DNA of 64,000 nucleotides from Corynebacterium freiburgense (GTDB lineage Bacteria; Actinomycetota; Actinomycetes; Mycobacteriales; Mycobacteriaceae): NCBI RefSeq assembly GCF_030408815.1, contig NZ_CP047355.1, positions 744,001-808,000 of the forward strand. Reading direction: 5' to 3'. The translations under genes and the position numbers were made by a program. The notes beneath the pieces were generated by a model, which ran no database searches, had not been told where the DNA came from, and worked only from the letters and a program-made list of their open reading frames with translations. Of the stretch, positions 9,044 through 61,345 are shown in pieces. How positions within the stretch are numbered: the stretch's first letter is position 1; each line of letters begins with the position of its first letter.

Positions 9044-9335
9044 TTGAATTGCGTACAATTAGTTACCTGGGTTTTGTCACCGAAAACACCATCTTGTGCG
9101 CGATTGGTGTAAAAAGCGACACCGGACCCATTCTGGAGCCAAAATTTTGTCGCCAAAAACACCAATTGGGCACAACATGGTGTAAAAAGCGACATTGGTT
9201 ATATGATCATCAAGTTCTGGCGCTCGCGACTCTAGCTTTTCGACGCCGCGCCCACCTCTGCCTGTGCTTTTTGGGTTGCTGACGTGCGCGCCGTCGAGAA
9301 GTATTGAATTGTGTGCAATTGGTTAGTGGGGGCGC
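9044..9335 (+). repeat. Family-1 intergenic repeat: two 47-nt hairpins and a GCTTTTCGACGCC block
   Basis: Holds, in order, AATTGCGTACAATT with GTTACCTGGG, hairpin 9075-9121, a 26-base spacer and hairpin 9148-9194. Each hairpin reads TGTCRC-N5-ACACCA-loop-TGGTGT-AAAAA-GCGACA. A block from 9235 begins GCTTTTCGACGCC and ends GAGAAGTATTGAATT with another near-palindrome AATTGTGTGCAATT. The same modules recur at 14899-15316. No open frame is conserved. This accounts for most of the 430-base gap before the methyltransferase gene. Confidence 0.85.
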
Positions 9336-9423
9336 AAAAGCGATATAAGGTACGGAAGTGTTAGAATCTACGACCGGCGTTTCGGCGTCGTCATAGGGGG
9401 AGATTGTATTAAGCTTCAGCTCT

Positions 9424-10251
9424 GTGGAATCAATCTTTCTATCTGACCCTACAGACCCGCGGCTCGACGATATTCGGAACTTGAATCACTCGAACTTACG
9501 GTCTGATCTGCCTGGTGGCAAGGGCTTGGTCATAGGGGAGGGGCCACTTGTAATCTCGCGGCTCCTCGAATCGCGTTTTCCTGTTCGAATGATCGTAGGT
9601 TTTGGCGCAAAGCTCGAGAGCTTCCTCGAAACCTACGGTGATCCTGGGGTTCCGGTGTATGAGGTAACTCGGGAAACATTAGCCAAGGTCGCTGGGTTTG
9701 ATATGCACCGAGGGCTGGTAGCAGCGGCGGACCGCGCGCCGTCGTTAAGTGTCGAAGAAGTAATTGAACGTGCGAACACTGTTGTGATCCTCGAAGGGGT
9801 CGGAAATCATGAGAACGTTGGTGCGTTGTTTCGCAATGCCGCCGGCCTGGGTGTTGACGCAATTTTGTTCGGTGCTGGGTGTGCGGATCCGTTGTATCGC
9901 CGAGTGGTTAGAGTTTCCATGGGGCATGTTCTTCGCTTACCATTCGCACACCTGGGCGGCACAACAACGACCTGGCAGCGTAGTCTTGAACTGCTGAAAG
10001 GACGCGGATTCCACTTGGTCTCGCTTACCCCGAACACCAAAACAACGCTGTCCGAAGCGCTGACTCCTGTATCGAACAAACCGGTGGGGTTGCTTGTAGG
10101 TGCCGAGGGCCCGGGGTTAACTGAGCACGCGATGCGAGCCACAGATATTCGAGCATGTATTCCCATGAGTGAGGGGACTGATTCGCTGAATCTTGCCACT
10201 GCCGCCGCAATTGCGTTCTATGAGCGGATGAAGTCCATGGCGCCGGAATGA
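9424..10251 (+). CDS. SPOUT (TrmH/SpoU-type) RNA 2'-O-methyltransferase
   Basis: A 275-residue S-adenosylmethionine-dependent methyltransferase of tRNA or rRNA ribose. The N-terminal substrate-binding domain (1-115) is followed by a trefoil-knot SPOUT domain with the three family motifs: GVGNHENVGALFRNAAGLGVDA, LLVGAEGPGLT, and IPMSEGTDSLNLATAAAIAFYE. A GTG start is used; no ATG fits the N-terminus. The target nucleotide is not predictable from this sequence. Confidence 0.9.
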   Translation: MESIFLSDPTDPRLDDIRNLNHSNLRSDLPGGKGLVIGEGPLVISRLLESRFPVRMIVGFGAKLESFLETYGDPGVPVYEVTRETLAKVAGFDMHRGLVAAADRAPSLSVEEVIERANTVVILEGVGNHENVGALFRNAAGLGVDAILFGAGCADPLYRRVVRVSMGHVLRLPFAHLGGTTTTWQRSLELLKGRGFHLVSLTPNTKTTLSEALTPVSNKPVGLLVGAEGPGLTEHAMRATDIRACIPMSEGTDSLNLATAAAIAFYERMKSMAPE

Positions 10252-10262
10252 CGCTGAGTTCC

Positions 10263-10922
10263 TCACGCGCCGTGTCCAGGTCCGCCATTTAAATAACCGA
10301 ATGATTTTGCGAGTTTCAAGGCGAGGACGGTGCGGTCGGCGGCATCGAGTTTTCGTAATAGATGAGACACATGATTCTTCACCGTTCCCTCGGCGAGGAA
10401 GAGTTGCGCCGCGATCTGCTTGTTGTTCGCCCCCTGCGCGACCAGCTCGGCTACAGCGCGTTCTGCCCGGGTGAGCGTCATAATGCCACGTACTTTTGAA
10501 GTGCCAGAATTGCGTCTATGTACGATTCGCGCGATGCGGGGATCGAGGACAATTCCGCCTTCAGCGGCCGCTTGAATTGCCTCGAATAAGTGTTCTGCGG
10601 AGACGTCTTTGAGTAAATAGCCAGCGGCCCCGGCGTCGATAAGCGAGCGCACCAGGGAAGCATCGTCGAAGGTGGTGAGTACGAGCACCGGCACCTCTGG
10701 GTGGAGGCGTGCGCATTCGGTGACCACGGCGAGACCGTCAAAGCCAGGCATGACCGCGTCTGTTACCACTACATCGGGCTGGTGTTCGTTTATTAGCTTG
10801 GATACTTCCCGGCCATCGGTGGTTGTGGCAACCACATCGCATCCGTCGATGGTTTCGAAGATAAGCGAAAGTCCGCGGAGCATTAAAGCATGGTCATCTA
10901 CCAGGATGATTCGTTTGGTCAT
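10263..10922 (-). CDS. Two-component response regulator, NarL/LuxR family
   Basis: A 219-residue regulator. The receiver domain (1-120) has the acidic pair Asp 9/Asp 10, phospho-acceptor Asp 55 (VVTDAVMPG) and the conserved Lys in GYLLKD. The C-terminal LuxR-type helix-turn-helix (about 150-212) contains LTRAERAVAELVAQGANNKQIA and GTVKNHVSHLLRKL. Its start overlaps the sensor kinase stop (ATGA), so the two are one operon and a cognate pair. The 13-base word GCTTATCGACGCC lies inside it (10632-10644), encoding SLIDAG. The signal sensed is unknown. Confidence 0.94.
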   Translation of the reverse strand: MTKRIILVDDHALMLRGLSLIFETIDGCDVVATTTDGREVSKLINEHQPDVVVTDAVMPGFDGLAVVTECARLHPEVPVLVLTTFDDASLVRSLIDAGAAGYLLKDVSAEHLFEAIQAAAEGGIVLDPRIARIVHRRNSGTSKVRGIMTLTRAERAVAELVAQGANNKQIAAQLFLAEGTVKNHVSHLLRKLDAADRTVLALKLAKSFGYLNGGPGHGA

Positions 10923-12127: not shown

Positions 12128-12140
12128 GACCGGGGTCATG
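12089..12140. promoter_or_regulatory. Cluster of TGACC/GGTCA half-sites in a divergent promoter
   Basis: Four half-sites occur in 52 bases: GGGTCA (12094), GTGACC (12119), and the palindrome CATGACC-GG-GGTCATG at 12125-12140. They sit between the two-component operon and the CPBP gene at 12210 and are a plausible binding array for the response regulator (autoregulation plus control of the protease). Inference only. Confidence 0.4.
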
Positions 12141-12209: not shown

Positions 12210-13058
12210 ATGACTACATCGTTGATTTCTTCGAATACTCACCAACCACGCATTACCCTTCGCTGGTGGGGATTGTTATTACGTGCGGTGGTGGCCCTGT
12301 TGATATTGCTCGTTGGCAATTTCCTTCGTGTTCCGCTTATGGCGTTGCCAGTGATGCGAAGTGAAAGCACACTCGGGTTGGTGGGGAACATACTGGCGCC
12401 GGTGATTACGCTTGCTGTGTGTTGGATCTTGGTGTTGCTCTGGATGAAGCACGTTGAGCGAAAACCATTTGCTAGCACAGGCTTTAGCAATTTCCGGCAG
12501 ATGCTCCCTGGTTTGCTTGGTGGCACCGCCATTGTCGCGGTTCCTACCGTTATCAGCGCGTTGATACTGTCAGCTCTCGCCGAAAACGGCACCAGCGTGC
12601 AGGAAATTAGTGGGATGAGCAGGTCCATGATTGTGTTGAGCGTCGTGTTCATCATCAGTATGTCGTTTATCCTGCAAGGCATTCCAGAGGAGCTGATCTA
12701 CCGAGGCTGGTTATTTTCCCTCACCAAAGCCCGGCCCTGGTTTACCGTCGCATGGACGACTGCTGCGTTCACCATCATTCACCTGCTTTCTCAAGGCGGA
12801 CAGCAGAACATGTGGCAGCGTGTCGAATATTTGGTCTTACCTCTAAGCATGGGACTGCTAGCTGGTGCGGTCGTTCTTCTCACCGATAATCCCTGGTATG
12901 CAGCGGGAACACACGGCGGAATGCACCTGTGCAATGGTCTACTGCCGTTGGTGTTTGCCTATAACCAACAGGGGCCGCAGGCCTGGTACATCGGTGCGTT
13001 GTGCCAGGGCGTGGTGGCGGCCGCATTGCTGGTGCTGTGGCGGCGTCGACAAGCATGA
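12210..13058 (+). CDS. CPBP family intramembrane metalloprotease
   Basis: A 282-residue membrane protein with about eight helices. The Abi/CPBP motifs are present: PEELIYRGWLFSL (motif 1, the Glu-Glu pair and Arg), FTIIHLL (motif 2 His) and GTHGGMHLCNG (later His/Asn motif). Such proteases cleave substrates in the membrane (type II CAAX prenyl endopeptidase-like), but bacterial substrates are mostly unknown. The ATG at 12210 starts ahead of a short cytoplasmic tail. It faces the two-component operon across a putative operator and converges on a second CPBP gene with only 2 bases between stops. Confidence 0.87.
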   Translation: MTTSLISSNTHQPRITLRWWGLLLRAVVALLILLVGNFLRVPLMALPVMRSESTLGLVGNILAPVITLAVCWILVLLWMKHVERKPFASTGFSNFRQMLPGLLGGTAIVAVPTVISALILSALAENGTSVQEISGMSRSMIVLSVVFIISMSFILQGIPEELIYRGWLFSLTKARPWFTVAWTTAAFTIIHLLSQGGQQNMWQRVEYLVLPLSMGLLAGAVVLLTDNPWYAAGTHGGMHLCNGLLPLVFAYNQQGPQAWYIGALCQGVVAAALLVLWRRRQA

Positions 13059-14879: not shown

Positions 14880-15045
14880 CCCCCGCCCCTTGATGTTTGC
14901 TTTTCGACGCCGCGCCCGCTGCTGCCTGCAGTTTTGGAGTTACTGACGCGCGCGCAGTCTCGCAGCTTTGAATTGTATACAATTGGTTACCTGGGTTTTG
15001 TCGCCAAAAACACCATGTTGTGGACAATTGGTGTAAAAAGCGACA
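14880..15045 (+). repeat. Family-1 intergenic repeat, single-hairpin copy
   Basis: Begins with GCTTTTCGACGCCGCGCCC at 14899, continues to the perfect palindrome AATTGTATACAATT and GGTTACCTGGG, and ends with one 47-nt hairpin at 14999-15045 (TGTCGC...ACACCA / TGGTGT...GCGACA). It is the first of two tandem copies in the 670-base gap after the AbiEi-like gene. Confidence 0.85.
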
Positions 15046-15085: not shown

Positions 15086-15316
15086 GCTTTTCGACGCCAC
15101 GCCTGCAACTGCCTGCACTTTCGGGGTTGCTGACGTGCACGCCGTCGAGAAGTATTGAATTGCGTACAATTGGTTACCTGGGTATTGTCGCCAAAAACAC
15201 CATCTTGTGGACAATTGGTGTAAAAAGCGACACCGAACCCCTTCTGAGGCCAAAATTTTGTCGCCAAATACACCAATTGGGCACAAATTGGGCACAACAT
15301 GGTGTAAAAAGCGACA
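15086..15316 (+). repeat. Family-1 intergenic repeat, two-hairpin copy with expanded loop
   Basis: The same module order as the preceding copy: GCTTTTCGACGCC at 15086, CCGTCGAGAAGTATTGAATT, AATTGCGTACAATT, hairpin 15186-15232 (47 nt), a 26-base spacer and hairpin 15259-15316 (58 nt). The last hairpin is longer because the 11-base loop segment ATTGGGCACAA is duplicated. From 15317 to 15484 I see nothing recognisable. Confidence 0.85.
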
Positions 15317-16345: not shown

Positions 16346-17272
16346 TCAGCTCCTGGGGCGCTTGGTGTTGGTGCGCACCCCGAGGAGCACGTCTTCCCAA
16401 TGTGGTGTTACTGCTTTTCGACGTCGCTTAGGCTCCGGCGTTTTCGCTGGTTGCGGCCGTATTTTCTCGTCGCTTTCGAGGATTCCATCGCCGTGCTGTT
16501 GGGGTTCCTCATTCACGATTGGGATCGGAGCGGTCTGCTCGTTGGTGGTGGGTACGTCAAAATGTGGGAGGCTGCGGACTGGTCGTGAGAACTGAGGATC
16601 GATAAGGTCTGCTGCACTAGCGTTTCGGGCGACAACGGTGGGGGAGGCTGCGGTGCCTTTGGGGTGATACGACCATTCGGCAGTGTTTTCGGATATGCCG
16701 GATTGCCAACTCACGCGAACGACCCATTGCCCGGAGGCATCTCGGTAGGAATCCCACTTGGAAGTAGTCAGGTCTATTTCGCGCGCAGCAAATGCGGTCG
16801 CCAAGATTTCCCATAGTGTGAGCGAGGCTGGACCATCATCACGCACGGGGAGGGCGCGTTTTGCCAGTTCGGCCATGCGTGATCGCTCTAAAAGAATGGG
16901 GTGGGCAAAAGGCTCGATTCGGGATTCGCGCACGCCGATGGCTTCTGCTATTTCGCTTATCGACGCCCCGCCGCGGATACGCTCTTGGATCTCGCGGGGT
17001 CGCATTGTAAGTGGGCCCGAGCGGTGTTGTTCTGGGTCCTGTTGTGGAACGGGGATTTGTTCGATTGGCGGTTCGGGAGGTGGGCTGTCGTCTGGCTCTT
17101 CGACTGGTTCTGGTGTAGCTTCCTGTGGTTCAAATGTTTGTGGGGTTGGGGCGGTAAGGATTTCTAATAGCGAATCGTCTACGGCAAGGAAGAATTGCTC
17201 GCCGGAATCCTCAGCACACAACACCAGAGATGTGGCGTTTGACTCGTGTGCGACAAGGTGCAGCTCGCGCAT
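16346..17272 (-). CDS. sepH: Septation protein SepH
   Basis: A 308-residue protein of the DUF3071/SepH family. SepH binds FtsZ and promotes its assembly at division sites in Streptomyces and mycobacteria. The N-terminal DUF3071 domain starts MRELHLVAHE, has an acidic Pro-Glu-rich insertion (about 50-90), then a helix-turn-helix-like segment (MRPREIQERIRGGASISEIAEAIGV). The disordered C-terminus ends in the conserved basic KRRRKAVTPHWEDVLLGVR motif. The ATG at 17272 matches the family start. GCTTATCGACGCC lies on the antisense strand at 16955. Confidence 0.93.
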   Translation of the reverse strand: MRELHLVAHESNATSLVLCAEDSGEQFFLAVDDSLLEILTAPTPQTFEPQEATPEPVEEPDDSPPPEPPIEQIPVPQQDPEQHRSGPLTMRPREIQERIRGGASISEIAEAIGVRESRIEPFAHPILLERSRMAELAKRALPVRDDGPASLTLWEILATAFAAREIDLTTSKWDSYRDASGQWVVRVSWQSGISENTAEWSYHPKGTAASPTVVARNASAADLIDPQFSRPVRSLPHFDVPTTNEQTAPIPIVNEEPQQHGDGILESDEKIRPQPAKTPEPKRRRKAVTPHWEDVLLGVRTNTKRPRS

Positions 17273-18919: not shown

Positions 18920-20043
18920 TCGGCTGCGGCGATGCCGGAATCGAGAATATAATCGATTGCTTTGGTGAGCGTGACGATGTCGGCGGAGTCGATGGCAGGG
19001 AACATACCAATGCGCAGTTGGTTGCGGCCAAGCTTGCGGTAAGGCTCCACATCGACGATGCCGTTAGCACGCAGGGTCTTGGCGATTTTCGCGGCGTCGA
19101 TAGTGTCTGCGAAATCGATGGTGCCTACCACGAGGGAACGTTTTGCGGGGTCGGTGACATAGCAGGAAGCTTCAGGACGGGCATCGGCCCAGGTATACAA
19201 GCTTTTCGACGACGCGGTGGTGCGCTCCACCATGCCGGCTAGGCCACCATTGGCGTTCATCCACTGGACTTGATTATCCATAAGCAGAAGGGTGCTTACA
19301 GCTGGAGTGTTATAGGTCTGATTCTTGCGGGAATTATCCACGGCTGTTTGCAAGCTTAAAAACGCTGGGATAAAACGATCAGATGCATGAATCTTGGCGA
19401 TGCGATCAATCGCAGCTGGGCTCATAGCGGCAAACCATAAACCACCATCTGAAGCAAAACATTTCTGCGGAGAGAAGTAGTACACATCGGTTTGGGAAAT
19501 ATCTACCGGCAGACCACCTGCACCTGATGTAGCGTCGATAGCCACCAGGGCGTCGCCATCCGGGCGAATTACTTCAGCCATAGCGCCGGTGGAAGTTTCA
19601 TTATGAGCCCAGCCAAGGAGATCACAGCCCTCCATCGCCTGTGGTGCGGGGGCGTCGCCTGGTTCTGCGGAAACGATTGTGGGTTCGGCGAGCCATGGTG
19701 CTTTTTTCGCCGCCGAAGCGAATTTGCCTGAAAATTCACCAAATGAAAGATGCCCGGACTTATTTTCGATTAACCCGAAGGTTGCAGAATCCCAGAACGC
19801 GGTGGCGCCACCCAATGACAAAATAATCTCATAACCATCAGGAAGTTGGAATAGATTGCTGAGACCTTCACGGATCGATCCAACAACATTCTTTACCGCA
19901 GGTTGACGGTGAGATGTGCCCATAATTGTGGACTGTCCATCAACGATGGCTTGCACCTGTGCGGCGCGAACTTTGGACGGGCCACAGCCGAAGCGGCCAT
20001 CGACGGGAAGAAGTTCTTGTGGGAGAGAGGGGAACTCGGACAT
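18916..20043 (-). CDS. serC: Phosphoserine aminotransferase
   Basis: A 375-residue PLP enzyme that converts 3-phosphohydroxypyruvate and glutamate to O-phosphoserine (serine and, secondarily, pyridoxal synthesis). The mycobacterial-type sequence starts PQELLPVDGRFGCGPSKVR; other marks are MGTSHRQPAVKNVVGSIREGL, the ISQTDVYYFSPQKCFASDGGLWFA segment with the Schiff-base Lys, and the C-terminal ELRIGMFP-like NQLRIGMFPAIDS. The ATG at 20043 gives the family N-terminus. It diverges from the epimerase gene at 20130. Confidence 0.96.
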   Translation of the reverse strand: MSEFPSLPQELLPVDGRFGCGPSKVRAAQVQAIVDGQSTIMGTSHRQPAVKNVVGSIREGLSNLFQLPDGYEIILSLGGATAFWDSATFGLIENKSGHLSFGEFSGKFASAAKKAPWLAEPTIVSAEPGDAPAPQAMEGCDLLGWAHNETSTGAMAEVIRPDGDALVAIDATSGAGGLPVDISQTDVYYFSPQKCFASDGGLWFAAMSPAAIDRIAKIHASDRFIPAFLSLQTAVDNSRKNQTYNTPAVSTLLLMDNQVQWMNANGGLAGMVERTTASSKSLYTWADARPEASCYVTDPAKRSLVVGTIDFADTIDAAKIAKTLRANGIVDVEPYRKLGRNQLRIGMFPAIDSADIVTLTKAIDYILDSGIAAAD

Positions 20044-25727: not shown

Positions 25728-27230
25728 CTAGATCAGACGTGCGGGAAGTGCCTCATAGTGCCGGAAACGTTGCTCGCGTCCCACGCGTTGTGGGTTGTTT
25801 TCCAATTGCCAGAGCGTGTGATTTATATGGGCGATAACATTTTCAATAAATTCCGTTGGGTGCTCGGCTGCATCGCCATGCTCGGAAATAAGACCGTCAA
25901 CAATGCCAGCATCGAGTAGTGCGGGTGCGCCGACTCCTTGTTCTTCCATCATTTGGGCGGCGTGATTGGTATCGCGATAGATAATGGCCGAAGCCCCTTC
26001 TGGGGGTAATGGTGATAGCCAAGCATTTTCTGCCGCCAGGACGCGATCTGATGGCAACATGGCTAAAGCAGCGCCACCACAGCCTTGGCCGAGGATAACG
26101 GATATGGTGGGGACGTCGACGTCGACAAGCTCCCCAAGCGTACGTGCAATGGAACCAGCCATCCCGTTTTCTTCGGCGGCTTGGGAAAGCTCGGCGCCGG
26201 GTGTGTCAATAATGCTGATAAGCGGTAGCTGCAACTCATGTGCGAGTTGAATTCCACGTCGGGCAAAGCGGAGAGCTGCAGGCCCAAGCTCGGTTTTTGC
26301 GTGCGGTGGCTGATTGTGGCGGTCCTGGCCAATAAGAACTACTGGTCGATTTCCTAGGCGAGTTAATGCGACGGTAACGGCTGGGGAGCGGCGGCCCTCA
26401 CCGGTGCCGGAAAGTTCGATCCAATGTTTGGCAAGTGCGGCTTTCAGTTCTCGCACTCCTGGTCGATCTATACGGCGGGTGCACTCAATGGCATTCCATG
26501 GCCCCTTAATGGATGTAGGGTCCGGAACGGAAGGGGCGCTTGGTTCGGTATATTGCTGGCTTGGGCGAAGGACGTCGATAATTTTTCGTACAGCTTCCCG
26601 TAGCTGGGTTGGTGAAATAACGCCGTCTATAACCCCATGTTGAGCTAGGTTTTCACCGGTTTGGACACCATCGGGCATTGGAATGCCGGTGGTGAGTTCG
26701 ACGACGCGGGGCCCCAGGAACCCAAGGAGTGCGTCGGGTTCTGCAAAAGTAAAATGTCCCGCAGACCCCCAGGAGGCAAGTACCCCACCGGTTGTTGGGT
26801 TCCGGAGATAAACCAAGAACGGTAAGTGCGCATCTTTGTGTCGATACACTGCCGTTGTGATTGAGACCATAAGTGCGAAAGCGGGGGTACCTTCTTGCAT
26901 TCGCGTGCCCCCAGAGGACGGGGAGATAAGCAGAGGGAGTCCTTGGTCGGTGGCGCGGTGGATTCCGGCAATAATGCGTCGTGCTGTAGCTGCGCCAATC
27001 GATCCGCCGAGGAACGCAAATTCACTTAATACAAATGCCACTCGGGTGCCACCGACAGTGCCTTCACCAGTGATTACAGCTTCATCGACTCCGCTTTTTT
27101 CGCGTGCTTTTTTCAATGCTTGCTGGTATTGCTCGGAGATGTCTCCGTATTCGGGTGGAGTATCCCAACTTACAAAAGAATCGTGGTCGAGAACTTGGCG
27201 GATAAGGTCGTGGGCACCGGTACGAGTCAT
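25728..27230 (-). CDS. accDA: Acyl-CoA carboxylase carboxyltransferase, fused AccD-AccA type
   Basis: A 500-residue carboxyltransferase that combines an AccD-like N-terminal half (VAFVLSEFAFLGGSIG, LLISPSSGGTRMQEG, TTGGVLASWGSAGHFTFAEPDALLGFLGPRVVE) with an AccA-like C-terminal half (LPLISIIDTPGAELSQAAEENGMAGSIA, GQGCGGAALAML). The zinc-ribbon found at the N-terminus of bacterial AccD is absent. It transfers the carboxyl group from biotin to acetyl- or propionyl-CoA together with a biotin-carrying alpha subunit encoded elsewhere. First gene of a three-gene operon with the malic enzyme. Confidence 0.88.
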   Translation of the reverse strand: MTRTGAHDLIRQVLDHDSFVSWDTPPEYGDISEQYQQALKKAREKSGVDEAVITGEGTVGGTRVAFVLSEFAFLGGSIGAATARRIIAGIHRATDQGLPLLISPSSGGTRMQEGTPAFALMVSITTAVYRHKDAHLPFLVYLRNPTTGGVLASWGSAGHFTFAEPDALLGFLGPRVVELTTGIPMPDGVQTGENLAQHGVIDGVISPTQLREAVRKIIDVLRPSQQYTEPSAPSVPDPTSIKGPWNAIECTRRIDRPGVRELKAALAKHWIELSGTGEGRRSPAVTVALTRLGNRPVVLIGQDRHNQPPHAKTELGPAALRFARRGIQLAHELQLPLISIIDTPGAELSQAAEENGMAGSIARTLGELVDVDVPTISVILGQGCGGAALAMLPSDRVLAAENAWLSPLPPEGASAIIYRDTNHAAQMMEEQGVGAPALLDAGIVDGLISEHGDAAEHPTEFIENVIAHINHTLWQLENNPQRVGREQRFRHYEALPARLI

Positions 27231-39018: not shown

Positions 39019-39486
39019 TCATTCCGCGCGCTGCCAGGTCTGAAATTTGTACCGTACCCCCGTCTTGGATTCCCGCCATTCGCTTTCGGATATGCATTTG
39101 AATTCGGCGGGGATTTTGGGGGCGTAAACGGTATGTTTATCGGCGGCGACGGGGGCGTCGATAAGCGTGCGCTCAATTGTTTGAACGATGTCGAGGGTGT
39201 TGGCGTATACCCTGCCTCCGCCAATAATCCATCCATGTTTGGGCAGTTGCTTTACGACGGTCGCGCCCGTAGACCAGGTGCCTTCGCTGCGGGTACTTAG
39301 TACGTAATTTCGGCGACCGGGGAGTGGTTTAAAAGGGAGGGATTCCCAGGTGTTTCGGCCCATAATTATTGGTTCGCCAAGGGTTGTTTGTTTGAAGTGC
39401 GCAAGGTCTTCGGGAACATCCCAGGGGATGGTATTTGCATGGCCAATAATGCCGTCGAGGTTTTCTGCCCAAATTGCTTTTAGCAT
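39019..39486 (-). CDS. folA: Dihydrofolate reductase
   Basis: A 155-residue DHFR: IWAENLDGIIGHANTIPWDVPEDLAHFKQTT (with the catalytic Asp in PWDVPEDLAHFK), IIMGRNTWESLP, and IIGGGRVYANTL. It regenerates tetrahydrofolate after thymidylate synthesis. The ATG directly abuts the thyA stop with no bases between, so the two are one operon. The 13-base word GCTTATCGACGCC (39154) encodes LIDAP. Confidence 0.97.
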   Translation of the reverse strand: MLKAIWAENLDGIIGHANTIPWDVPEDLAHFKQTTLGEPIIMGRNTWESLPFKPLPGRRNYVLSTRSEGTWSTGATVVKQLPKHGWIIGGGRVYANTLDIVQTIERTLIDAPVAADKHTVYAPKIPAEFKCISESEWRESKTGVRYKFQTWQRAE

Positions 39487-43841: not shown

Positions 43842-44315
43842 ATGTTTGGTTTTGGAAAGAAGAAAGTACATTTGCAACGCCCTTGCGCAGGCCAGGTCGT
43901 TCCGATTACGGATGTTCCTGACCCGGTATTTTCCCAAGGTATTGTGGGTGAGGGTTTTGCAGTGGTGCCGGAAACCACGACGGGTATTTTCCAGGTGTGT
44001 GCTCCTGCGAATGGCACAATTGTATCGATCTTTCCCACCTTGCATGCCTTTGCAATGAAAACCGAACAAGGGTTGGAACTGCTTGTGCATGTTGGATTGG
44101 ATACCGTATCCCTTCAAGGTCAAGGTTTTACCAGCATGGTAGCCCGCGGTGATACGGTCTCTGCAGGTGATGTGATACTGCGTGTCGACGCCACCGTGCT
44201 TACAGACCACGGATGTAGTTTGATCACCCCAGTGGTTGCTACCAATAAAAAGCAGGTTTCTTCATTAGCGCTTCAACCTACCAATGACATTGTCTGTACA
44301 GTGACCCTTGCCTAA
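43842..44315 (+). CDS. PTS EIIA, glucose family (Crr type)
   Basis: A 157-residue EIIA(Glc)-like protein: RPCAGQVVPITDVPDPVFSQGIVGEG, then NGTIVSIFPTLHAFAMKTEQGLELLVHVGLDTV, which carries both active-site histidines. It passes phosphate from HPr to EIIB. As a separate small gene 15 bases after EIICB it completes a three-gene operon, whereas many corynebacterial PTS permeases carry fused EIIA. Confidence 0.95.
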   Translation: MFGFGKKKVHLQRPCAGQVVPITDVPDPVFSQGIVGEGFAVVPETTTGIFQVCAPANGTIVSIFPTLHAFAMKTEQGLELLVHVGLDTVSLQGQGFTSMVARGDTVSAGDVILRVDATVLTDHGCSLITPVVATNKKQVSSLALQPTNDIVCTVTLA

Positions 44316-44324
44316 TTCATAACG

Positions 44325-45029
44325 CTACTCTTCCGTCGTTGCATTGAGATGTTTCGTTGCTTCCCGGCGGGAGAGTGGTTGGATTTCGGGATGTTGAGCA
44401 AGGAATGCCCGCACCCACTGAGGATTTGTGCGGGCATAGTCACGCAAGGCCCAGCCTATTGCTTTCGCAATAAAAAATTCGGTTTCCTGCAGGTTGGGGA
44501 CGATCACTCCGCTTAATAGGTCAGTGTCGGTGTTTTCTTTTGCCTGAAGCTGGCAGAGTATGGCGTAGCGACGAATCCAAATATCCGGATCTTGAGCCCA
44601 CTGAATCATTCGCTCGAATTCTTTATGAGAGTTTTGTCGAATGTAGTTATGGGTGTGGACGCATTCATCAACAAGGTCCCACCAGGCTGCAGTGCGAATA
44701 AAGTGCTCGATTGTTGGCATAGCGGTGGCGTCGAGAAGCTTGGCATGTTTAGGAAGGAGCAAAAGCATTAAGGCACTGCGACGATATTCGCGGTGTGTGG
44801 CGCCATCCCAAAGTTTACGGGCGGTTGCGAGAAGTTCAGCAAGGGACAGTCCGGCGGGAGCGTGTGTCTGTACTATGCGGCGAATAAGGTTTCGTTGTTC
44901 GGGTACTCGAAGCCCCAGCAGTGGTTCAGAACATTTAAGATATTTTTGTTGGCTTTGGGCGAAATCGGCATTCCCGTATTGCGGTAGTTGTGTATAGATT
45001 TCGGAAATTATCGTGGTGTTTGCTTGCAT
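44325..45029 (-). CDS. DNA alkylation repair protein, AlkD-like
   Basis: A 234-residue all-helical HEAT-like protein of the AlkC/AlkD DNA glycosylase group: YGNADFAQSQQKYLKCSEPLLGLRVPEQRNLIR, WDLVDECVH, DPDIWIRRYAILCQL and EFFIAKAIGWALRDYARTNPQWVRAFL with the conserved Trp, Asp and Arg. Such enzymes remove 3- and 7-alkylpurines. The ATG at 45029 overlaps the upstream DprA-like gene by 22 bases, so they are co-translated. GGCGTCGAGAAGC lies at 44727, encoding KLLDA on the sense strand. Confidence 0.9.
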   Translation of the reverse strand: MQANTTIISEIYTQLPQYGNADFAQSQQKYLKCSEPLLGLRVPEQRNLIRRIVQTHAPAGLSLAELLATARKLWDGATHREYRRSALMLLLLPKHAKLLDATAMPTIEHFIRTAAWWDLVDECVHTHNYIRQNSHKEFERMIQWAQDPDIWIRRYAILCQLQAKENTDTDLLSGVIVPNLQETEFFIAKAIGWALRDYARTNPQWVRAFLAQHPEIQPLSRREATKHLNATTEE

Positions 45030-45864: not shown

Positions 45865-46623
45865 CTAGTAGCTGCCGTTGGCTGCATGGAAATCGGCGGC
45901 AATGCTAAGGATTTCCTCGGCGAGTTCCGGACGGCAAATCAGCACGTCGGGCAGGTAGGTGTCTTTATTATTATAGGTGATTTCGCTGCCGTCGAGACGC
46001 GAACAGTGCAATCCAGCGGCCCGGCACACCCCAACGGGAGCTGCAGAATCCCATTCATATTGGCCACCGGCGTGCACATAAGCGTCGGCATCACCAAGCA
46101 GAACATGCATTGCTTTAGCGCCCGCTGAACCCATGGACACAGTTTCAAATCCAAGCTTTTCTGCAATGTGGTTTGCAACCTTTGGTGGGCGGTTATGGGA
46201 AATCATGATTTTCCGCGCTAGTGGTCCCATCACAGCCTTCGCGTCGGAAGAATGGAACACAACACCAAGGTCAGGGAGCCCAACAGCGGCATGGATTGGG
46301 GTGCCGTGTTCAATAAGCGCAATGTGTACGGCCCAGTCTTGGCGGCCAGTGGCAAATTCTTTGGTGCCGTCCAGGGGATCGATAATCCATACGCGATCTT
46401 TTTCAAGACGGGCTGGGTTATCAGCTGCTTCTTCGGAGAGGAAACCATCGTCCGGACGGTGTTGGGCCAATACTCGAGCAATCCAGTTCTGTGCGAGTTC
46501 ATCACCAGCATCACCGAGGTGTGTGCTGCGAAGTAGACCGACATTGCGCACGCCCTTAAGGATTTCACCAGTACCTTGTGCGAGTCGTCGGGTCAGGTTC
46601 GCGTCTTCAAAGTGTGCAGTCAT
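45865..46623 (-). CDS. cysQ: 3'(2'),5'-bisphosphate nucleotidase, CysQ-like
   Basis: A 252-residue Mg-dependent phosphatase of the inositol monophosphatase superfamily. GFLSEEAADN, WIIDPLDGTKEFATGRQDWAVHIAL (metal-binding Asp pair) and YVHAGGQYEWDSAAPVGVCRAAG are the family motifs. CysQ hydrolyses PAP in sulphate assimilation; other IMPases are possible. It is eight bases upstream of dprA on the same strand, so probably one unit with dprA and alkD. The ATG lies 8 bases after TAGACT on the minus strand (leaderless). Confidence 0.9.
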   Translation of the reverse strand: MTAHFEDANLTRRLAQGTGEILKGVRNVGLLRSTHLGDAGDELAQNWIARVLAQHRPDDGFLSEEAADNPARLEKDRVWIIDPLDGTKEFATGRQDWAVHIALIEHGTPIHAAVGLPDLGVVFHSSDAKAVMGPLARKIMISHNRPPKVANHIAEKLGFETVSMGSAGAKAMHVLLGDADAYVHAGGQYEWDSAAPVGVCRAAGLHCSRLDGSEITYNNKDTYLPDVLICRPELAEEILSIAADFHAANGSY

Positions 46624-46649: not shown

Positions 46650-49600
46650 ATGGTAGGCATGCCAGAGGTTATTTTGGAGCGTTTTTGTCCGCAGGTGGCC
46701 GAATGGTTCCGCAATGTGTTCGCACAACCCACCCGTGTGCAGGCCGAAGCATGGGAACACATTAGCCAAGGCCGCAATGCGTTAGTGGTTGCACCCACCG
46801 GCTCTGGTAAAACTCTTGCGGCGTTTTTATGGTCCCTTAATTCGCTTGTCGACGCCCCGCGCTCCAAGGTAAAAGTCCTCTATATCTCCCCGCTTAAAGC
46901 CCTTGGTGTGGATGTGGAAACCAATCTTCGGGCACCACTACACGGTATCGCCATGACCGCGGAACGCCTAGGCTTACCCGTACCCGATATTACGGTGGGT
47001 GTGCGATCAGGAGATACCACTTCAGCGGAACGAAGTCGCCTTGTACGCAACCCCCCAGACATCCTTATTACTACCCCGGAATCGCTCTATCTCATGCTCA
47101 CTTCAAAAGCTGCCGCGATTCTAAGTGAAGTGGAAACCGTAATTATCGACGAAATACACGCACTTGCCGGGACGAAACGCGGTACGCATCTTGCATTAAG
47201 CCTGGAACGACTAGCCACAATGACCACATTTCAACGCATTGGGCTTTCTGCCACAGTTCGACCACTTGAACGCGTTGCGGATTTCCTAGGTCCGAACACA
47301 TCCATTATTGCGCCGCCGGCTGAAAAACTCTGGAACCTGCATGTGCACTATGGGGAACAATTCGAAGAAGATATCTATGCCCAAGTTATGTCGGCACGAT
47401 CGACATTATTATTTGTAAATTCCCGAAGGGCCGCAGAACGCTTGACCGCGCGTTTAAATGAAATCGATGAATCCGAAATTGCGCGGGCTCACCATGGTTC
47501 CGTAAGTAAAGACGAACGAGCCCTTACTGAGCAGCTCCTAAAAGCCGGCGAAATCCGGTGTGTAGTAGCCACATCTTCCCTGGAATTAGGTATTGATATG
47601 GGTGCTGTGGATCTGGTTATTCAAGTGGAATCCCCACCGAGTGTAGCCGCAGGTTTGCAGCGCGTTGGGCGTGCCGGACACGCTGTGGGTGCGACGTCGA
47701 TAGGCAGAATCTATCCAACGCACAATGCGGACCTTGTACAAAGTGCAGTAGTAGTGCAGCAGATGCGTAATGGGAGTATTGAAGAACTTTCCATACCTAG
47801 CAACCCCTTGGATGTATTGGCTCAGCAAACTGTAGCGGCTGCCGCAATGACCGAACTCAATGTCGATGATTGGTTCGCTACGGTGCGAAAATCTTACCCA
47901 TACCGCGAATTACCCCGTGAAGCATTCGATACTGTAATCGACTTGGTAAGTGGTTCGTACCCAAGCACTGAATTTGCTGAACTTCGTCCCCGTGTGGATT
48001 TTGACCGCATTAGTGGAACCTTACGAGCACGCCCAGGTGCGCAACGTGTAGCAGTGACCAATGGTGGAACCATCCCAGATCGCGGACTATTTGGTGTGTT
48101 TCTCCTTGGCGGTGATGAGGGAGCCCGGAGAGTAGGCGAACTCGACGAAGAAATGGTTTATGAAACCCGCGTTGGAGATATTTTTACCCTTGGAGCTTCC
48201 AGCTGGCAGGTCGCGGAAATCACCCGTGATCAGGTCCTTGTTACTCCTGCGCCGGGCCATACTGGGCGGTTACCATTCTGGCTTGGAGATCAGCAGGGTC
48301 GGCCCGCCGAACTTGGTAAAGCTATTGGGGCTTTTCGGCGTAATCCAAAGTACAGCGCTGACCTCGGGGAATTCGCACAAGCAAGTATTAAACAGTACCT
48401 AGATGAGCAGCGTGAATCTACCGGCATTATTCCTGATGAACGAACCCTCTTGGTTGAGCGTTTCCGCGATGAGCTTGGCGATTGGCGGGTGATCCTGCAT
48501 TCCCCATATGGCCGACCAGTTAATGCTGCTTGGGCATTAGTCATTGGCACTAAATTTGATTTCGACGCCCAGATAGTCGCGGGCGATGATGGAATCATTC
48601 TGCGCGTCCCAGACTCCGATATTGATCCAGGTGCGGGGATATTCCAAATTGATCCTCATGAAGCGGAAGACATTGTGCCCCGGGAAGTGAGCAATTCTGC
48701 CCTTTTTGCTTCACGGTTCCGCGAATGTGCCGCACGTGCATTATTAATGCCCAGGAAAAAGCCTGGCCAGCGCTCTCCGCTTTGGCAGCAGCGACAGCGG
48801 GCGTCGCAATTATTGGAGGTGGCGCGGAAATACCCAAACTTTCCGATTATTTTAGAAACTATTCGCGAGTGCTTGCAGGATGTGTATGACCTGCCTGCTT
48901 TCCTATCACTTTTGCATGATATTGCGGCGCGCCGGGTTCGAATCGTTGAAGTTACGGTGGATCAACCAAGCCCATTTGCGTCTTCGTTATTGTTCCATTA
49001 CACGGGCGCTTTTATGTATGAAGGCGACACTCCACTTGCAGAAAAACGTGCGGCGGCGTTGGCACTTGATCCGTCTTTAATGGCGAAATTATTGGGCAAT
49101 ATTGAGCTTAGGGATTTACTAGACCTTGATGCAATTGCGGCAGTGGAAGCGGAACTTCGCAGGCATCATTATGCCCGCACGCCCGCTGAACTTGAGGATA
49201 CGCTCCGAATCCTGGGCCCACTTCCGGTTTCTGAACTGGATCTATACACCTCATATCCAGATGCCGTACGATCACTAACCCATCAGATAATGCGGGTGCG
49301 CATAGCCGGTATTGAACATATTGCATTGGTTCACGACGCCGCGCTCCTCCGGGATGGTTTGGGGATTCCGGTGCCAGCTGGGGTGGCGGCTTCAAACACC
49401 ATAATCACCGATGCTTTAGAACAATTGCTCGGTCGATGGATTCGCACGAATTTGCCTTTTACTTTGGAGGCGTTGGCTGGAGCGTTTGGCATTCCGATTG
49501 CGATGGCACACAGTGTGTTGCAAACCTTGGATGTATTACCTGGCCACTACACATCGTCAGACGAACAATTTTGCGATCCCAAGGTGCTGCGGCGGCTACG

Positions 49601-50822
49601 ATTGCGGAGTTTGAATGCAGCTCGTGCGGCAGTGTCTCCGGTGTCTCATGAGGCGTTTGCTCGTTTCCTCCTGGATTGGCAGCAGGTTGCACCATTGGGG
49701 GATACCCCCACATTGTCTGGCATTGATGGTGTCTATTCTGCAATCGAACAATTAGCCGGTATAAGGCTTCCAGCTAGCGCGTGGGAATCGCTGGTACTTC
49801 CGTCTCGGGTGGCAAACTACAATCCCGCGTGGCTTGACGAACTAACGATCAATGGCGAAGTTTTTGTGGTTGGTGCTGGCAAGGCTGGTACTCGAGACCC
49901 TTGGATTATGCTCCTACCTGCGGACGACGCCGCACCATTCCTCGAACCTCTCGATGATTTACCTGAGCTTGGTCCATTGGAACAAAAAATAGTGGATTTC
50001 CTTTCGAATGGTGGCGCTTACCTCTATCCCGAAATTCGATCCTATGTTCAGGCTTCTCCGGGGGATCTTCAAACCGCCATGTTTTCCTTGTTCGAGGCGG
50101 GCTTAATCGCTCCTGATGGGTTCCAGGCGGTACGCGCCTACCTTGGTTCTGGTGGCCGTGTTGCTCATCGTGCTTCTCGACGACCCTCTCGCACGCGTGT
50201 ACAGGTTCCGCCTGCATTGGTCGGGCGATGGTCTTCGGTATCTCGATCCTCAATGGAACCGACTGCTCGTGGTAAAGCATTGGCTGATATTTGGTTGGGG
50301 CGCTATGGGGTAGTTACCCGTGGGAGCGTCGTTAATGAAAACTTGGTCGGTGGTTTCGCGCTGGCGTATCGCGTATTAAGTACATTCGAGGAGCGTGGCC
50401 GGGCGATTCGTGGATATCTTGTGGATGGTCTTGGGGCTTCTCAGTTTTCTACTTCTGCGGTGGTTGACCGCTTGCGTGGCTGGGAGGACCGCGTTAGTGC
50501 TGAGCCGAAAGTACACGTGATTGCTGCTGCTGATCCTGCGAATCCGTATGGCGCTGCGTTGCCGTGGCCGGTGTCGAATTTGAGTCGTGCTGCGGGTGCG
50601 CGTGTTATTTTGGCTGATGGTCGTTTGGTGGGTTTCCTTACTCGGGGTGGTAAGAACTTGACGATTATTTCCGAGGATGACCTTGGACATATTGCTGCTG
50701 CGTTGGCTGTTTCTGGGGATGTTATTGCAAAAGTGAATGGTGAGGGGGTGTTGGTTTCGCCGTATCTTTTGCAGTTTCGGGAGTTGGGTGCGCGAATCAG
50801 CCCGCAGGGCGTTCGTTTTTAG
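46650..50822 (+). CDS. lhr: Lhr family ATP-dependent helicase
   Basis: A 1390-residue superfamily 2 helicase. N-terminal DEAD-type core: VVAPTGSGKTLAAFLWSLN (Walker A), YISPLKAL, ITTPESLYLML, VIIDEIHAL (Walker B DEIH), SATVRPL, TLLFVNSRRAAERL, VVATSSLELGIDMG and QRVGRAGH; then a winged helix and the large Lhr C-terminal region (900 to 1390). Lhr unwinds RNA-DNA hybrids and is linked to DNA repair. The word GCTTGTCGACGCC occurs at 46844 (NSLVDAP). The stop overlaps the HNH gene stop by 4 bases. Confidence 0.95.
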   Translation: MVGMPEVILERFCPQVAEWFRNVFAQPTRVQAEAWEHISQGRNALVVAPTGSGKTLAAFLWSLNSLVDAPRSKVKVLYISPLKALGVDVETNLRAPLHGIAMTAERLGLPVPDITVGVRSGDTTSAERSRLVRNPPDILITTPESLYLMLTSKAAAILSEVETVIIDEIHALAGTKRGTHLALSLERLATMTTFQRIGLSATVRPLERVADFLGPNTSIIAPPAEKLWNLHVHYGEQFEEDIYAQVMSARSTLLFVNSRRAAERLTARLNEIDESEIARAHHGSVSKDERALTEQLLKAGEIRCVVATSSLELGIDMGAVDLVIQVESPPSVAAGLQRVGRAGHAVGATSIGRIYPTHNADLVQSAVVVQQMRNGSIEELSIPSNPLDVLAQQTVAAAAMTELNVDDWFATVRKSYPYRELPREAFDTVIDLVSGSYPSTEFAELRPRVDFDRISGTLRARPGAQRVAVTNGGTIPDRGLFGVFLLGGDEGARRVGELDEEMVYETRVGDIFTLGASSWQVAEITRDQVLVTPAPGHTGRLPFWLGDQQGRPAELGKAIGAFRRNPKYSADLGEFAQASIKQYLDEQRESTGIIPDERTLLVERFRDELGDWRVILHSPYGRPVNAAWALVIGTKFDFDAQIVAGDDGIILRVPDSDIDPGAGIFQIDPHEAEDIVPREVSNSALFASRFRECAARALLMPRKKPGQRSPLWQQRQRASQLLEVARKYPNFPIILETIRECLQDVYDLPAFLSLLHDIAARRVRIVEVTVDQPSPFASSLLFHYTGAFMYEGDTPLAEKRAAALALDPSLMAKLLGNIELRDLLDLDAIAAVEAELRRHHYARTPAELEDTLRILGPLPVSELDLYTSYPDAVRSLTHQIMRVRIAGIEHIALVHDAALLRDGLGIPVPAGVAASNTIITDALEQLLGRWIRTNLPFTLEALAGAFGIPIAMAHSVLQTLDVLPGHYTSSDEQFCDPKVLRRLRLRSLNAARAAVSPVSHEAFARFLLDWQQVAPLGDTPTLSGIDGVYSAIEQLAGIRLPASAWESLVLPSRVANYNPAWLDELTINGEVFVVGAGKAGTRDPWIMLLPADDAAPFLEPLDDLPELGPLEQKIVDFLSNGGAYLYPEIRSYVQASPGDLQTAMFSLFEAGLIAPDGFQAVRAYLGSGGRVAHRASRRPSRTRVQVPPALVGRWSSVSRSSMEPTARGKALADIWLGRYGVVTRGSVVNENLVGGFALAYRVLSTFEERGRAIRGYLVDGLGASQFSTSAVVDRLRGWEDRVSAEPKVHVIAAADPANPYGAALPWPVSNLSRAAGARVILADGRLVGFLTRGGKNLTIISEDDLGHIAAALAVSGDVIAKVNGEGVLVSPYLLQFRELGARISPQGVRF

Positions 50823-58055: not shown

Positions 58056-58150
58056 CGCACTCCAACGCACCACCTCAATATGTCAAAACCCCCACCGCAA
58101 GCATTTTGCAATGTTGTGCGGTAGGGGCGTCGAAACGCGATGTGGGGGTG

Positions 58151-59791
58151 TTATTTCTTATCGCGGTACCAGGTGATTAGGTTGTCGGTGGAGGAATCAC
58201 CGGAATCGGGGGCTTCAGCGCCAGTCACTGCAGGCAGCAAATCGCCGGCTTGTTTTTTGCCTAATTCCACACCCCATTGGTCGAAGGAATTGATGTCCCA
58301 AATTACGCCTTGGACAAAGGTGATGTGCTCATATAACGCGATTAGTGCGCCGAGGATCGCGGGGGTGAGTTCCTCTGCAAGAATCGTCGTGGTTGGGCGG
58401 TTGCCGGGCATAACCTTATGGGTTACTAGTTCGACTGGAACGCCCTCAGCGGAAATTTCGGCGGCGTTTTTACCAAAAGCGAGGACCTTGGTCTGGGCAA
58501 AGAAATTACTCATTAGTAGGTCATGCATACTGCCGGTGCCATCGGCAGTTGGCAAATCTGTTTTCGGGCGGGCAAAGCCAATAAAATCGGCGGGCACGAT
58601 CCGGGTGCCCTGATGCATTAACTGGTAGAACGCGTGTTGGCCATTGGTGCCTGGTTCGCCCCAATAGATTTCGCCGGTATCGCAATGTACTGAAGTGCCG
58701 TCATGGCGGACAGACTTGCCATTGGATTCCATAGTTAGTTGTTGCAGGTAGGCAGGGAAGCGCGCCAGGTCTTGGGAGTAGGGAAGCACTGCGTGGGTGG
58801 CGGCACCATAGAAATCTCCATACCAAACACCCAGCAAACCCATGAGTACTGGGATATTTTGTTCTAGTGGTGTGGTGCGGAAGTGCTCATCCATGGCATG
58901 GAATCCGGAGAGGAATCGCATAAAGTCCATGGGGCCAATCACAGACATTAGGGAAAGGCCAATAGCGGAATCGACGGAGTAACGGCCGCCAACCCAGTCC
59001 CAGAAACCGAACATATTATTGGTATCAATGCCGAATTCAGCCACTTTTTCAGCATTGGTTGAAACCGCCACAAAGTGCTTAGCAACGGCGCTTTCATCGC
59101 CATCGAAAGCCTCTAAAAGCCAGCGTTTTGCTGCATGTGCGTTCGCCAGCGTTTCCTGAGTGGTAAACGTCTTTGAAGCAACGATAAAGAGGGTGGAAGC
59201 TGGGTCTAGATCCTCAAGTTTGGCCACAATATCCGCAGGGTCCACATTGGACACAAACCGCGCGGAAATGCCCGCGGTGGCGTAGTGGCGTAATGCTAGA
59301 ACGGCCATGGCTGGGCCAAGATCGGAACCACCGATACCAATATTCACTACCGTTTTGATTGTGCGCCCGGTATGGCCTAACCAATCACCGGAGCGAAGAG
59401 CGTGAGCGAAATCACGCATGCGGCCAAGTACTTCATGTACATCAGCGGCAATATCTTGGCCATCAACCTGTAAATCACGCTCTACAGGTAACCGCAAGGC
59501 GGTGTGAAGAACGGCCCGATCCTCGGTGTTGTTAATATGCTCGCCATTGAACATGGATTCGGTGCGCTCTTGGAGTTTTGCGGCTTTGGCTAGATCAATA
59601 AGAAGTTCGACTGTCTTATCGTTGATCAGGTTCTTTGAAAGATCTACATGAAGCCCAGCGGCGTCGAAAGTAAGTTTGTTTGCGCGTTCGGCATCGGCGG
59701 CAAACATTGTGCGAAGTGTAGTTTCGCTGAGCTCGTTGTGATGCGCTTTAAGTGCCTTCCACTGTTCGGTGGCGGTGATATCAGCAGCCAT
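58151..59791 (-). CDS. pgi: Glucose-6-phosphate isomerase
   Basis: A 546-residue Pgi of glycolysis. Family signatures: [54 protein letters not shown] (catalytic Lys/Glu region), [59 protein letters not shown] and [15 protein letters not shown]. The ATG at 59791 follows AAGGAG and precedes the family N-terminus. It diverges from a dehydrogenase across 78 bases. Confidence 0.97.
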
Positions 59792-59869
59792 GCTGTCTCC
59801 TTGTGTATTTCTTGATATGAGCGTTACTTCCTTCCCCACACTAGTCCGAGAACACCTACTGTGGGTTGC

Positions 59870-61345
59870 ATGGCAGAGCAATCCCACATTCATGCACTTA
59901 TCGAGTCCGTGCCCAAAGATTTGTTCTTAGCGGGACGCTGGACTGCGGCTTCCGACGGCGGCACTTTAAGCGTCCACAATCCCGCAACTGGTTTCGAACT
60001 CACACAGGTTGCTTCGGCAACTACTGACGACGCCCAGTCCGCTTTACGCGCCGCGCTATCCGCGCAAAAGCAATGGGCGGACACGCCTCCTCGTACGCGT
60101 TCTGAAATCCTCTACCGGACCTTCGAATTAATTCACGAACACTCGGAAGAATTAGCGCTCCTGCAAACCCTAGAGCTTGGGCGCGCCCTGCCGGATTCTC
60201 GGGCGGAGGTGGCGTATGGTGCTGAATTTTTCCGCTGGTTCGCGGAAGAAGCTGTGCGTATTCGCGGTGATTACCGAACCAACCCCTCAGGAACTGGACG
60301 AATACTTGTTCGTCAAGAGCCGGTCGGTCCTGTCTTAGCCATCACCCCATGGAACTTCCCGCTGGCAATGGGCACCCGCAAAATTGGCCCGGCGCTTGCT
60401 GCAGGTTGCACTGTGATTGCAAAACCGGCCTCGAAAACCCCTCTGACCATGCTTTATTTGGCTAAACTTTTGCAGGAGGCGGGCCTGCCTGAAGGCGTAT
60501 TAAGTGTGCTTCCATCTGCTCATGCTTCCCGCATTTCATCGCTTCTCGACGCCCCAGGCCTACGCAAACTCACATTCACTGGGTCTACATTGGTTGGGCA
60601 AAAACTTGCGATGAAAGCAGCAAAACATTCAATCCGTACAAGCCTGGAAATGGGTGGGAATGCTCCATATATAGTTTTGGAAGGCGCGGACCTGGATCTT
60701 GCTGCCCGTGAAATTGCAGTGGCGAAAATGCGTGGTGCTGGCCAGGTGTGCATTGCTGCGAATAGATTCCTTGTTCATGAATCTATTGCAGAAGAATTTG
60801 CCGATAAAGTAGCCGAAGAAATGGCAAAGTTTACGCTTGGTCCGGGTTGGTATGAAGGCGTAACCTTTGGTCCGCTTTCTGGTGCGGACCAGGTAGAAAC
60901 CGTACGTACTTTGGTGGATGACGCGGTTGCTCGCGGAGGACGCTTGGTGTGGGCTGGCCCAATTCCAGACTTAGGAAATGAGTTTGATTCTGGATATTGG
61001 TATCCCGGTGCGGTACTTATGAGTGCGCCGGAATCATCTCTTATCCATAAGCAGGAAATCTTCGGTCCAGTAGTGAGTGTAACTAAGATTTCCAGCATTG
61101 ATGAAGCTATTTACCGCGCAAATGAAACCCCATTCGGTTTAGCTGCATATGTTTTTGGACCATTGCCTGACGCCCTCATGGTCGCCGAACAGATTGAAGC
61201 CGGTATGGTTGCGGTGAATCGTGGTGTGCTTTCTGATCCTGCCGCGCCTTTTGGTGGGGTGAAGGAATCCGGTGTGGGGCGTGAGGGTGGGTTTGAAGGT
61301 ATCCATGAGTATTTGGAACCTAAATTTATTGCTTTGCCGATGTAA
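59870..61345 (+). CDS. gabD: NAD(P)-dependent succinate-semialdehyde dehydrogenase
   Basis: A 491-residue aldehyde dehydrogenase. [36 protein letters not shown] (cofactor), [30 protein letters not shown] (catalytic Glu) and [14 protein letters not shown] with the nucleophilic Cys are clear; the IAANR after the Cys is typical of succinate-semialdehyde dehydrogenases. Substrate specificity is by similarity. TACTGT is a possible -10 for a leaderless ATG at 59870. GCTTCTCGACGCC at 60541 encodes SLLDAP. Confidence 0.88.

Follow-up and report, generated by a model that had tools for sequence, protein, structure and literature searches.

We analysed a 64,000-nucleotide stretch of Corynebacterium freiburgense DNA (C1:744001-808000, hereafter the window) for a 13-base word, GCTTNTCGACGCC, which is a candidate DNA uptake sequence. 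The source genome (G000) has 2,962,293 bases in two contigs; G and L numbers denote genomes and loci or sequence pieces, respectively. The word occurred 13 times in the window, 8 times on the plus strand and 5 times on the minus strand. An earlier reading of the letters alone (the sequence-only reading) had reported 12 copies; all 12 were found at the places it gave, but its total was incomplete, as the minus-strand copy at 13042-13054 had been missed.

Copies of the word in the window

Gene placements in the window refer to open reading frames (ORFs) of at least 120 amino acids. Seven copies ran in the sense direction; by coordinate arithmetic, each begins on a codon's third base and so reads Leu-x-Asp-Ala (LxDA), the peptide given in the sequence-only reading. 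They were located in the genes of a LuxR-type response regulator (10632..10644, minus; gene 10263-10922), a P-type ATPase (30545..30557, plus; gene 29598-31877), a dihydrofolate reductase (39154..39166, minus; gene 39019-39486), a DNA alkylation repair enzyme (44727..44739, minus; gene 44325-45110), an lhr-type helicase (46844..46856, plus; gene 46650-50822), and an aldehyde dehydrogenase (60541..60553, plus; gene 59861-61345), and in an ORF at 35072-36433 (36178..36190, plus) that had been described earlier as a putative antiporter. Three copies lay antisense: in the same P-type ATPase gene (30421..30433, minus), in a DUF3071 gene (16955..16967, plus; gene 16346-17338), and at the 3' end of the ORF of an Rce1-like protease (13042..13054, minus; ORF 12126-13058).

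The other three copies, all on the plus strand, were associated with a repeat. Two 147-nucleotide direct repeats with 86% identity occupied 14899-15232, their starts 187 apart, and each had the word at its start. The first of these words (14899..14911) was outside the listed ORFs, and the second (15086..15098) was inside the 3' end of a putative minus-strand ORF (15061-15585). The copy at 9235..9247 (exact word GCTTTTCGACGCC), also outside the listed ORFs, lay in sequence similar to the first ~40 bases of the 147-nucleotide repeats.

When position 3 was allowed to be T or G and position 12 was left free, the window contained 25 copies, compared with 0.06 expected. Variants on the plus strand were located at 2292..2304 and 16413..16425 (both GCTTTTCGACGTC), 3823..3835 (GCGTATCGACGTC), 6305..6317 and 44180..44192 (both GCGTGTCGACGCC), 19201..19213 (GCTTTTCGACGAC), and 50172..50184 (GCTTCTCGACGAC). 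Minus-strand variants were located at 3575..3587 (GCGTATCGACGCC), 5571..5583 (GCTTGTCGACGGC), 26118..26130 (GCTTGTCGACGTC), 45988..46000 (GCGTCTCGACGGC), and 58126..58138 (GCGTTTCGACGCC). The variants at 16413 and 19201 are those that had been noticed earlier near 16412 and 19200.

Abundance, orientation and codon choice

Dinucleotide shuffles of the window predicted 0.03 copies of GCTTNTCGACGCC, and none of 100 shuffles reached 13. The whole genome contained 218 copies (122 forward, 96 reverse), compared with 3 (2 and 1) for the backwards control, in which the word pattern was read backwards and counted in the same genomes. The window was enriched relative to the genome, as ~4.7 copies would be found at the genome mean. 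A regular sample (464 kb, made up of the window and 20 pieces of 20 kb each) gave 43 copies, compared with 0.32 or 1.00 expected under Markov models of order 5 or 6, and without the window this sample still gave 30 copies against 0.24 or 0.74, respectively. The excess suspected from the window alone thus holds under a Markov background. The flanks of the 43 copies were unrelated, except for the three window copies at 9235, 14899, and 15086, which have a common flank. Because the flanks differ, the excess is not accounted for by a single repeat family, and the possibility, raised with the earlier reading, that the word is a piece of such a family was ruled out. Strong over-representation and dispersal of a short word are features of an uptake sequence.

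Single changes within CGACG were nearly absent from the G000 sample (0 or 1 each). Three other positions were partly tolerant: T3 was replaced by G in 19 cases, C12 by any other base in 22, and T6 by any other base in 11. To the right of the 13 bases, a weaker preference for S, C, and G was observed. The same core was found in G019, the most word-rich genome sampled at large scale (478 copies; 73 in 400 kb), where T6 was frequently changed to C (20 vs 73).

The word is asymmetric and dispersed, as are the over-represented FtsK-orienting polar sequences (KOPS) and Chi. In the highly iterated palindrome 1 (HIP1) of cyanobacteria, a word is likewise highly iterated within one lineage; HIP1 is palindromic, whereas the Corynebacterium word is not. 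Strand totals over the 151 Corynebacterium genomes of our genus survey, which were drawn from a larger group, were 10,352 forward and 10,292 reverse (p = 0.68), in line with the first impression of no strong polarity. The guanine–cytosine (GC) skew of G000 changes sign near 1.41 Mb; sampled words numbered +14/−11 before this point and +11/−7 after it, and copies were present on the origin (ori) side, on the terminus (ter) side, and in the zone of the skew change. The test of uniform spacing gave p = 0.055 (99 of the first 100 forward positions in the list), and the gaps were random-like (coefficient of variation 0.99). No replichore polarity of the word was seen in the 464 kb of sampled G000 stretches. 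Since the word balance was unchanged across the GC-skew reversal and the gaps were random-like, the word gives no sign of an orientation role like that of KOPS or Chi. A KOPS-like word would reverse its skew at ori and ter; here the GC skew reverses and the word does not. Polarisation with replication, as for Chi, was absent both from the G000 sample and from the 151-genome strand totals. The earlier suggestion of a chromosome-orientation signal is thus unsupported, and the near-even strands on either side of the skew change are as predicted for a DNA uptake sequence.

Selection on the word was visible in the choice of codons. LxDA tetrapeptides (x = F, I, L, V, A, P, S, or T) were encoded exactly as CTT-NTC-GAC-GCC in 25 of 58 cases in G000, compared with 0.23 expected from codon usage (~100-fold), and 34 of 121 in G019 used the word codons, compared with 1.6 expected. 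The third codon changed with the species. GAT forms were used in 24 of 47 tetrapeptides of G006 (0.67 expected) and GAC forms in none, whereas G004 used GAC forms in 28 of 56 (0.76 expected) and GAT forms in 2. No form was used in the word-poor genomes G030 (0/21) and G172 (0/9); with expectations of only 0.3 and 0.1, both serve as weak controls. Synonymous codons are chosen so as to make the word. According to a simple ORF caller (82% coding), 21 of the 43 words in G000 were in the sense LxDA phase; a further 12 lay within genes but in another frame (11 antisense), and the last 10 were intergenic. Within coding sequence the word is maintained at the DNA level, and one orientation and frame are favoured; PMC2346458 reports that known uptake sequences are likewise biased in frame towards one orientation. 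DNA-level selection, which the sequence-only reading had suspected, is supported by the codon test, by the antisense and intergenic copies, and by the dialect switching at shared sites described below.

Distribution and dialects

At least 20 main words were present in 102 of the 151 Corynebacterium genomes, 11-19 in 6, and 10 or fewer in 43, with a maximum of 592. Twenty-four genomes from other families of the order had 0-13 copies, which is near their backwards controls. The broader GCTTNYCGAYGCC occurred 2-41 times in 199 genomes that belong to the order but to other genera (29 from the same family), compared with 271 times in G000. It was above the backwards control in some of them (G310, 41 vs 9; G231, 26 vs 5), equal to or below it in many, and near the G000 value in none. 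The word is thus abundant in most of the congeners surveyed and close to chance outside the genus.

Twelve genomes carried related words instead, ten of them GCTTNYCGATGCC (T dialect) and two CGACGCCACCAG, and all forms have a common core, CGAYGCC. At least 20 copies of the main, T, or third-dialect word were present in 114 of the 151 genomes, and the other 37 fell below this number. G006 had 4 main words, and its top over-represented 12-mer was GCTTGCCGATGC; over-represented forms of GCTTNYCGATGCC were also found in G118. We assigned a genome of the 151 to the T dialect if GCTTNCCGATGCC and GCTTNTCGATGCC together reached at least 20 copies and main words were below 20. These summed counts were 407 in G006, 497 in G077, 98 in G097, 29 in G108, 195 in G118, 398 in G129, 283 in G135, 462 in G162, 372 in G167, and 308 in G168. 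In the G004 sample, the commonest form was GCTTNCCGACGCC (37/53). CGACGCCACCAG, the ACCAG class, numbered 111 copies in G010 and 123 in G015, compared with 0-13 elsewhere; it keeps the core and has a right arm in place of the left arm. Also over-represented in 140 kb of G015 (L218-L224) were TTTCACGTGAAA (6, a palindrome counted on both strands) and AGTTATCCACAG (8 copies), which we take to resemble parS and DnaA boxes.

Samples of G030 (140 kb) and G014 (100 kb) yielded no clear word of a further dialect, and the G172 sample (120 kb) showed a weak excess of CGACGCCACC (8 vs 1.3). Many word-poor genomes had more copies of YCGACGCCACC than of its backwards control (for example G159, 228 vs 27; G172, 112 vs 15; G157, 107 vs 11), and it showed no excess in T-dialect genomes such as G006 (16 vs 18) and G077 (15 vs 33). 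Its excess in main-word genomes as well (G128, 209 vs 18) blurs the extent of the third dialect.

The dialects were compared with a TadA tree of the 43 genomes with loci in hand, in which T-dialect G097 and G108 are not included. The four word classes needed 7 changes on this tree, against a shuffled mean of 14.2 (0 of 200 shuffles as low). All 8 T-dialect rows were inside one 16-row subclade, where close sisters carry either dialect (G006/G129 vs G098/G004 and others), and both ACCAG rows with 3 of the 5 word-less rows made up a separate deep clade. The dialects thus keep a constant core and follow phylogeny in this one-gene tree of 43 genomes; as TadA is a single gene, the species tree may differ. 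In PMC3630211 and PMC12616744, the dialects of the Neisseriaceae DNA uptake sequence (DUS) are described in the same way, with few differing bases around a constant core and a distribution following phylogeny.

Switching in place was observed between relatives. G006 and G004 were compared over 32 kb of alignment (82% identical, 11 pieces, not all proved orthologous and some perhaps repeats), and this short length is the reason for the few shared sites. Six G006 words were comparable; five fell on a G004 word, and in all five the dialect T was C in G004, one of them differing also at N. For the comEC region, ten loci were taken from the best 80 of 425 places found by ComEC alignment among the genome contigs (79 Corynebacterium records and 1 Amycolatopsis). 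The nearest ComEC among the matches listed was 63% identical and came from a metagenome-assembled genome, and near-identical records may be missing from this list. T-dialect loci L107, L109, L113, and L116 were set against C-dialect loci L111, L119-L121, L124, and L125, which belong to C. kefirresidentii, C. tuberculostearicum, and kin. Words coincided at two places and had T or C by group, except for L121 at one place; L119 was unaligned at one.

Uptake machinery and interpretation

G000 encodes ComEC (Competence domain) and ComEA (SLBB and HhH) adjacent to each other. Its tad-flp cluster contains a CpaE homologue, TadA, two T2SSF proteins (TadB and TadC by order), two TadE-like proteins (one below the NCBIfam cut-off), and a Flp-like protein of 67 amino acids (Pfam DUF4244), for which the Flp label comes from its prepilin-like sequence. 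Two DprA-family genes are present. The second lies in the window at 45008-45856 on the minus strand (PF02481, 115 bits; NCBIfam dprA below cut-off) and adjoins the word-bearing DNA alkylation repair gene. Uptake and transformation genes (comEA, comEC, dprA, tad-flp) thus exist in the genome, in the sense of gene presence alone. Micrococcus luteus is also an actinobacterium with comEA/comEC and tad-flp genes; its transformation depends on the Flp pilus and requires comEC and tad genes, and the term 'uptake sequence' is absent from the text of that paper (PMC4322843). The genes at the comEA and comEC places and several Tad genes were more diverged than many of their neighbours, as were some other genes.

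Biased uptake followed by recombination would be expected to produce a word of this kind: asymmetric, strand-symmetric, dispersed, forced upon coding sequence, bound to one genus, and with dialects by which near relatives differ at hundreds of sites. We read GCTTNTCGACGCC, with the weaker S, C, and G positions to its right, as the predicted DNA uptake sequence of this Corynebacterium, with a probability of roughly three in four, and of the three readings first offered this one fits best. A surface receptor, probably ComEA or a component of the Flp/Tad pilus, would bind the word in free double-stranded DNA and favour its uptake. ComEC would then import one strand, which DprA and RecA would recombine. 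As word-bearing DNA would be imported and recombined more often, words would accumulate chromosome-wide and on both strands wherever coding constraint allows. Shifts in receptor specificity would be followed by the words and may give rise to dialects. Tad minor pilins and ComEA are candidates for the receptor.

The best reading of the predicted uptake sequence is that it is convergent with those of Neisseriaceae and Pasteurellaceae. The DUS of Neisseriaceae, whose receptor is ComP, is likewise a short asymmetric word with many copies on both strands, in genes and spacers, and with dialects. Its sequence is unrelated, its hosts are Gram-negative whereas Corynebacterium belongs to the Actinomycetota, and its receptor is named whereas ours is a candidate. 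Corynebacterium also has Tad/Flp pilus genes rather than type IVa, and fewer word copies. The uptake signal sequence of Pasteurellaceae, for which PpdA/ComN is the predicted receptor, is over-represented and occurs in two types sharing an inner core (PMC12616744); over-representation and types with a common core are thus alike, and sequence and phylum are unrelated.

Several observations weigh against an uptake sequence. The G000 ComEC matches the Competence domain only. All 151 genomes had ComEC, and 148 had a T2SSE/TadA-type ATPase (145 above cut-off), word-less genomes included, so the presence of the machinery alone does not predict the word. A search for the receptor among Tad genes, com genes, and prepilin-like ORFs of 20 loci gave no clear candidate that differs between dialects. 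G014 is without the word though its neighbours in the TadA tree have it, and dialects are mixed in some genomes (G098, 116 main and 47 T; G036, 183 and 41). One of the six comparable G006 words was without a word in G004, and of eight G004 words, five were on a G006 word, two were unshared, and one was in a gap. Words near 5900, 9752, 10406, 13712, 15395, and 16454 of the comEC region were unshared between the dialect groups. Given both shared and unshared sites, word sites between relatives both persist and turn over. The word density is below that of Neisseria and Haemophilus, and no report of competence in Corynebacterium was found among the matches listed in the open-licence PMC literature.

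Two correlates of word poverty were tried and rejected. Ten or fewer copies were found in 31 of 42 genomes with long stop-to-stop comEC ORFs vs 12 of 108 with short ones (Spearman −0.32; 150 of 151 genomes, G001 being left out as it had no listed ORF). ComEC length was dropped because the extra length of L057 lay mainly upstream of the conserved start, with insertions in addition (12-sequence alignment), and because GC-rich genomes inflate stop-to-stop ORFs. The TadA/T2SSE score tended to be lower in word-poor genomes, but 3 of the 5 word-less rows of the tree and both ACCAG rows form a deep separate clade, so the tendency may be phylogeny.

The best of the other explanations, and still an unlikely one, is a recombination or repair hotspot, in which a recombinase or helicase-nuclease would recognise the word in the cell and repair or gene conversion would keep it. 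This would account for a dispersed asymmetric word under DNA-level selection, and a changing enzyme could drive the dialects; Chi is strongly polarised, whereas the word shows no replication-related strand bias, a 12-base word would be long for Chi, and a dialect change between near relatives would be unusual for a core repair enzyme. Binding by a nucleoid, segregation, or condensation protein over the chromosome is less probable again. No exclusion zone was seen, unlike at Noc or matS sites, KOPS-like polarity was lacking, and the excess was absent in other genera of the order, although hundreds of dispersed sites restricted to a genus would suit such a protein.

The word could also be a self-marking site that serves defence or modification, with protection in the chromosome and absence from phages. 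Phages BFK20 and phi673 (recorded hosts Brevibacterium flavum and C. glutamicum, respectively) and the 14-kb G000 contig, together 101 kb, contained no main, T, or loose words and no TCGACGCC; the hosts of the two phages may or may not bear the word themselves, and phage composition differs. At G000 density, ~22 copies would be expected in 101 kb (loose word, 103 in 464 kb of G000). These zeros may reflect depletion of the word in mobile DNA, as would be expected for an uptake sequence. They also agree with self-marking, which we nevertheless hold to be very improbable, because targets of such systems would usually be avoided or neutral and not accumulated through synonymous codons. The 14-kb contig (C2, L060; 13,965 bases) looks like a very small phage by its sequence: its terminase shares 48% identity with its counterpart in Rhodococcus phage RRH1 (14,270 bases), and other ORFs resemble portal, capsid, and tape-measure proteins by eye. 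Finally, selection on an LxDA peptide motif or a messenger RNA (mRNA) signal, to which about half of the G000 copies in one sense phase (21/43) might point, has almost no probability left and is refuted as sole cause, since codons fixed far beyond usage, a GAC/GAT switch by species, and the 22 of 43 copies outside that frame (11 antisense, 10 intergenic) exclude a protein-only or mRNA-only origin.

Other features of the window and sample concern different elements. The palindrome CGACGTCG was over-represented in the G000 sample with the window (66 vs 26, both strands counted). A second repeat, unrelated to the word and built of TGTCRCAGATTCCAT with its inverse (TGTCRCAGATTCCATAAAA / AAAAAATGGAATCTGYGACA), was located at 23476-23676, 27592-27781, and 57671-57860; its 15-mer occurred 47 times in 464 kb, in clusters of ~200-300 bases, and it resembles a hairpin-rich mobile or regulatory element. 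A cyclic di-AMP (ydaO/yuaA) riboswitch lies at 1899-2064 on the minus strand.

To our knowledge, self-recognition DNA tags have so far been reported in two Gram-negative families only, Neisseriaceae and Pasteurellaceae. Among the matches listed in the open-licence PMC literature, none reported a comparable word for Corynebacterium or Actinobacteria, and its novelty is relative to this scope. We consider it probable, with slightly less confidence than for the uptake sequence itself, that self-specific DNA uptake evolved independently in the genus, as the third system of this kind and the first outside Gram-negatives. It would comprise at least three dialects, and a Flp/Tad pilus component would probably read them. 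Dialect switches between near sisters (the C. tuberculostearicum group vs its T-dialect relatives) would split the genus into populations, each taking up DNA of its own kind. If this is true, self-recognition would evolve repeatedly and on different pili, with its third case in Gram-positive mycolic-acid bacteria, and natural competence would be implied in a genus that matters to medicine and industry.

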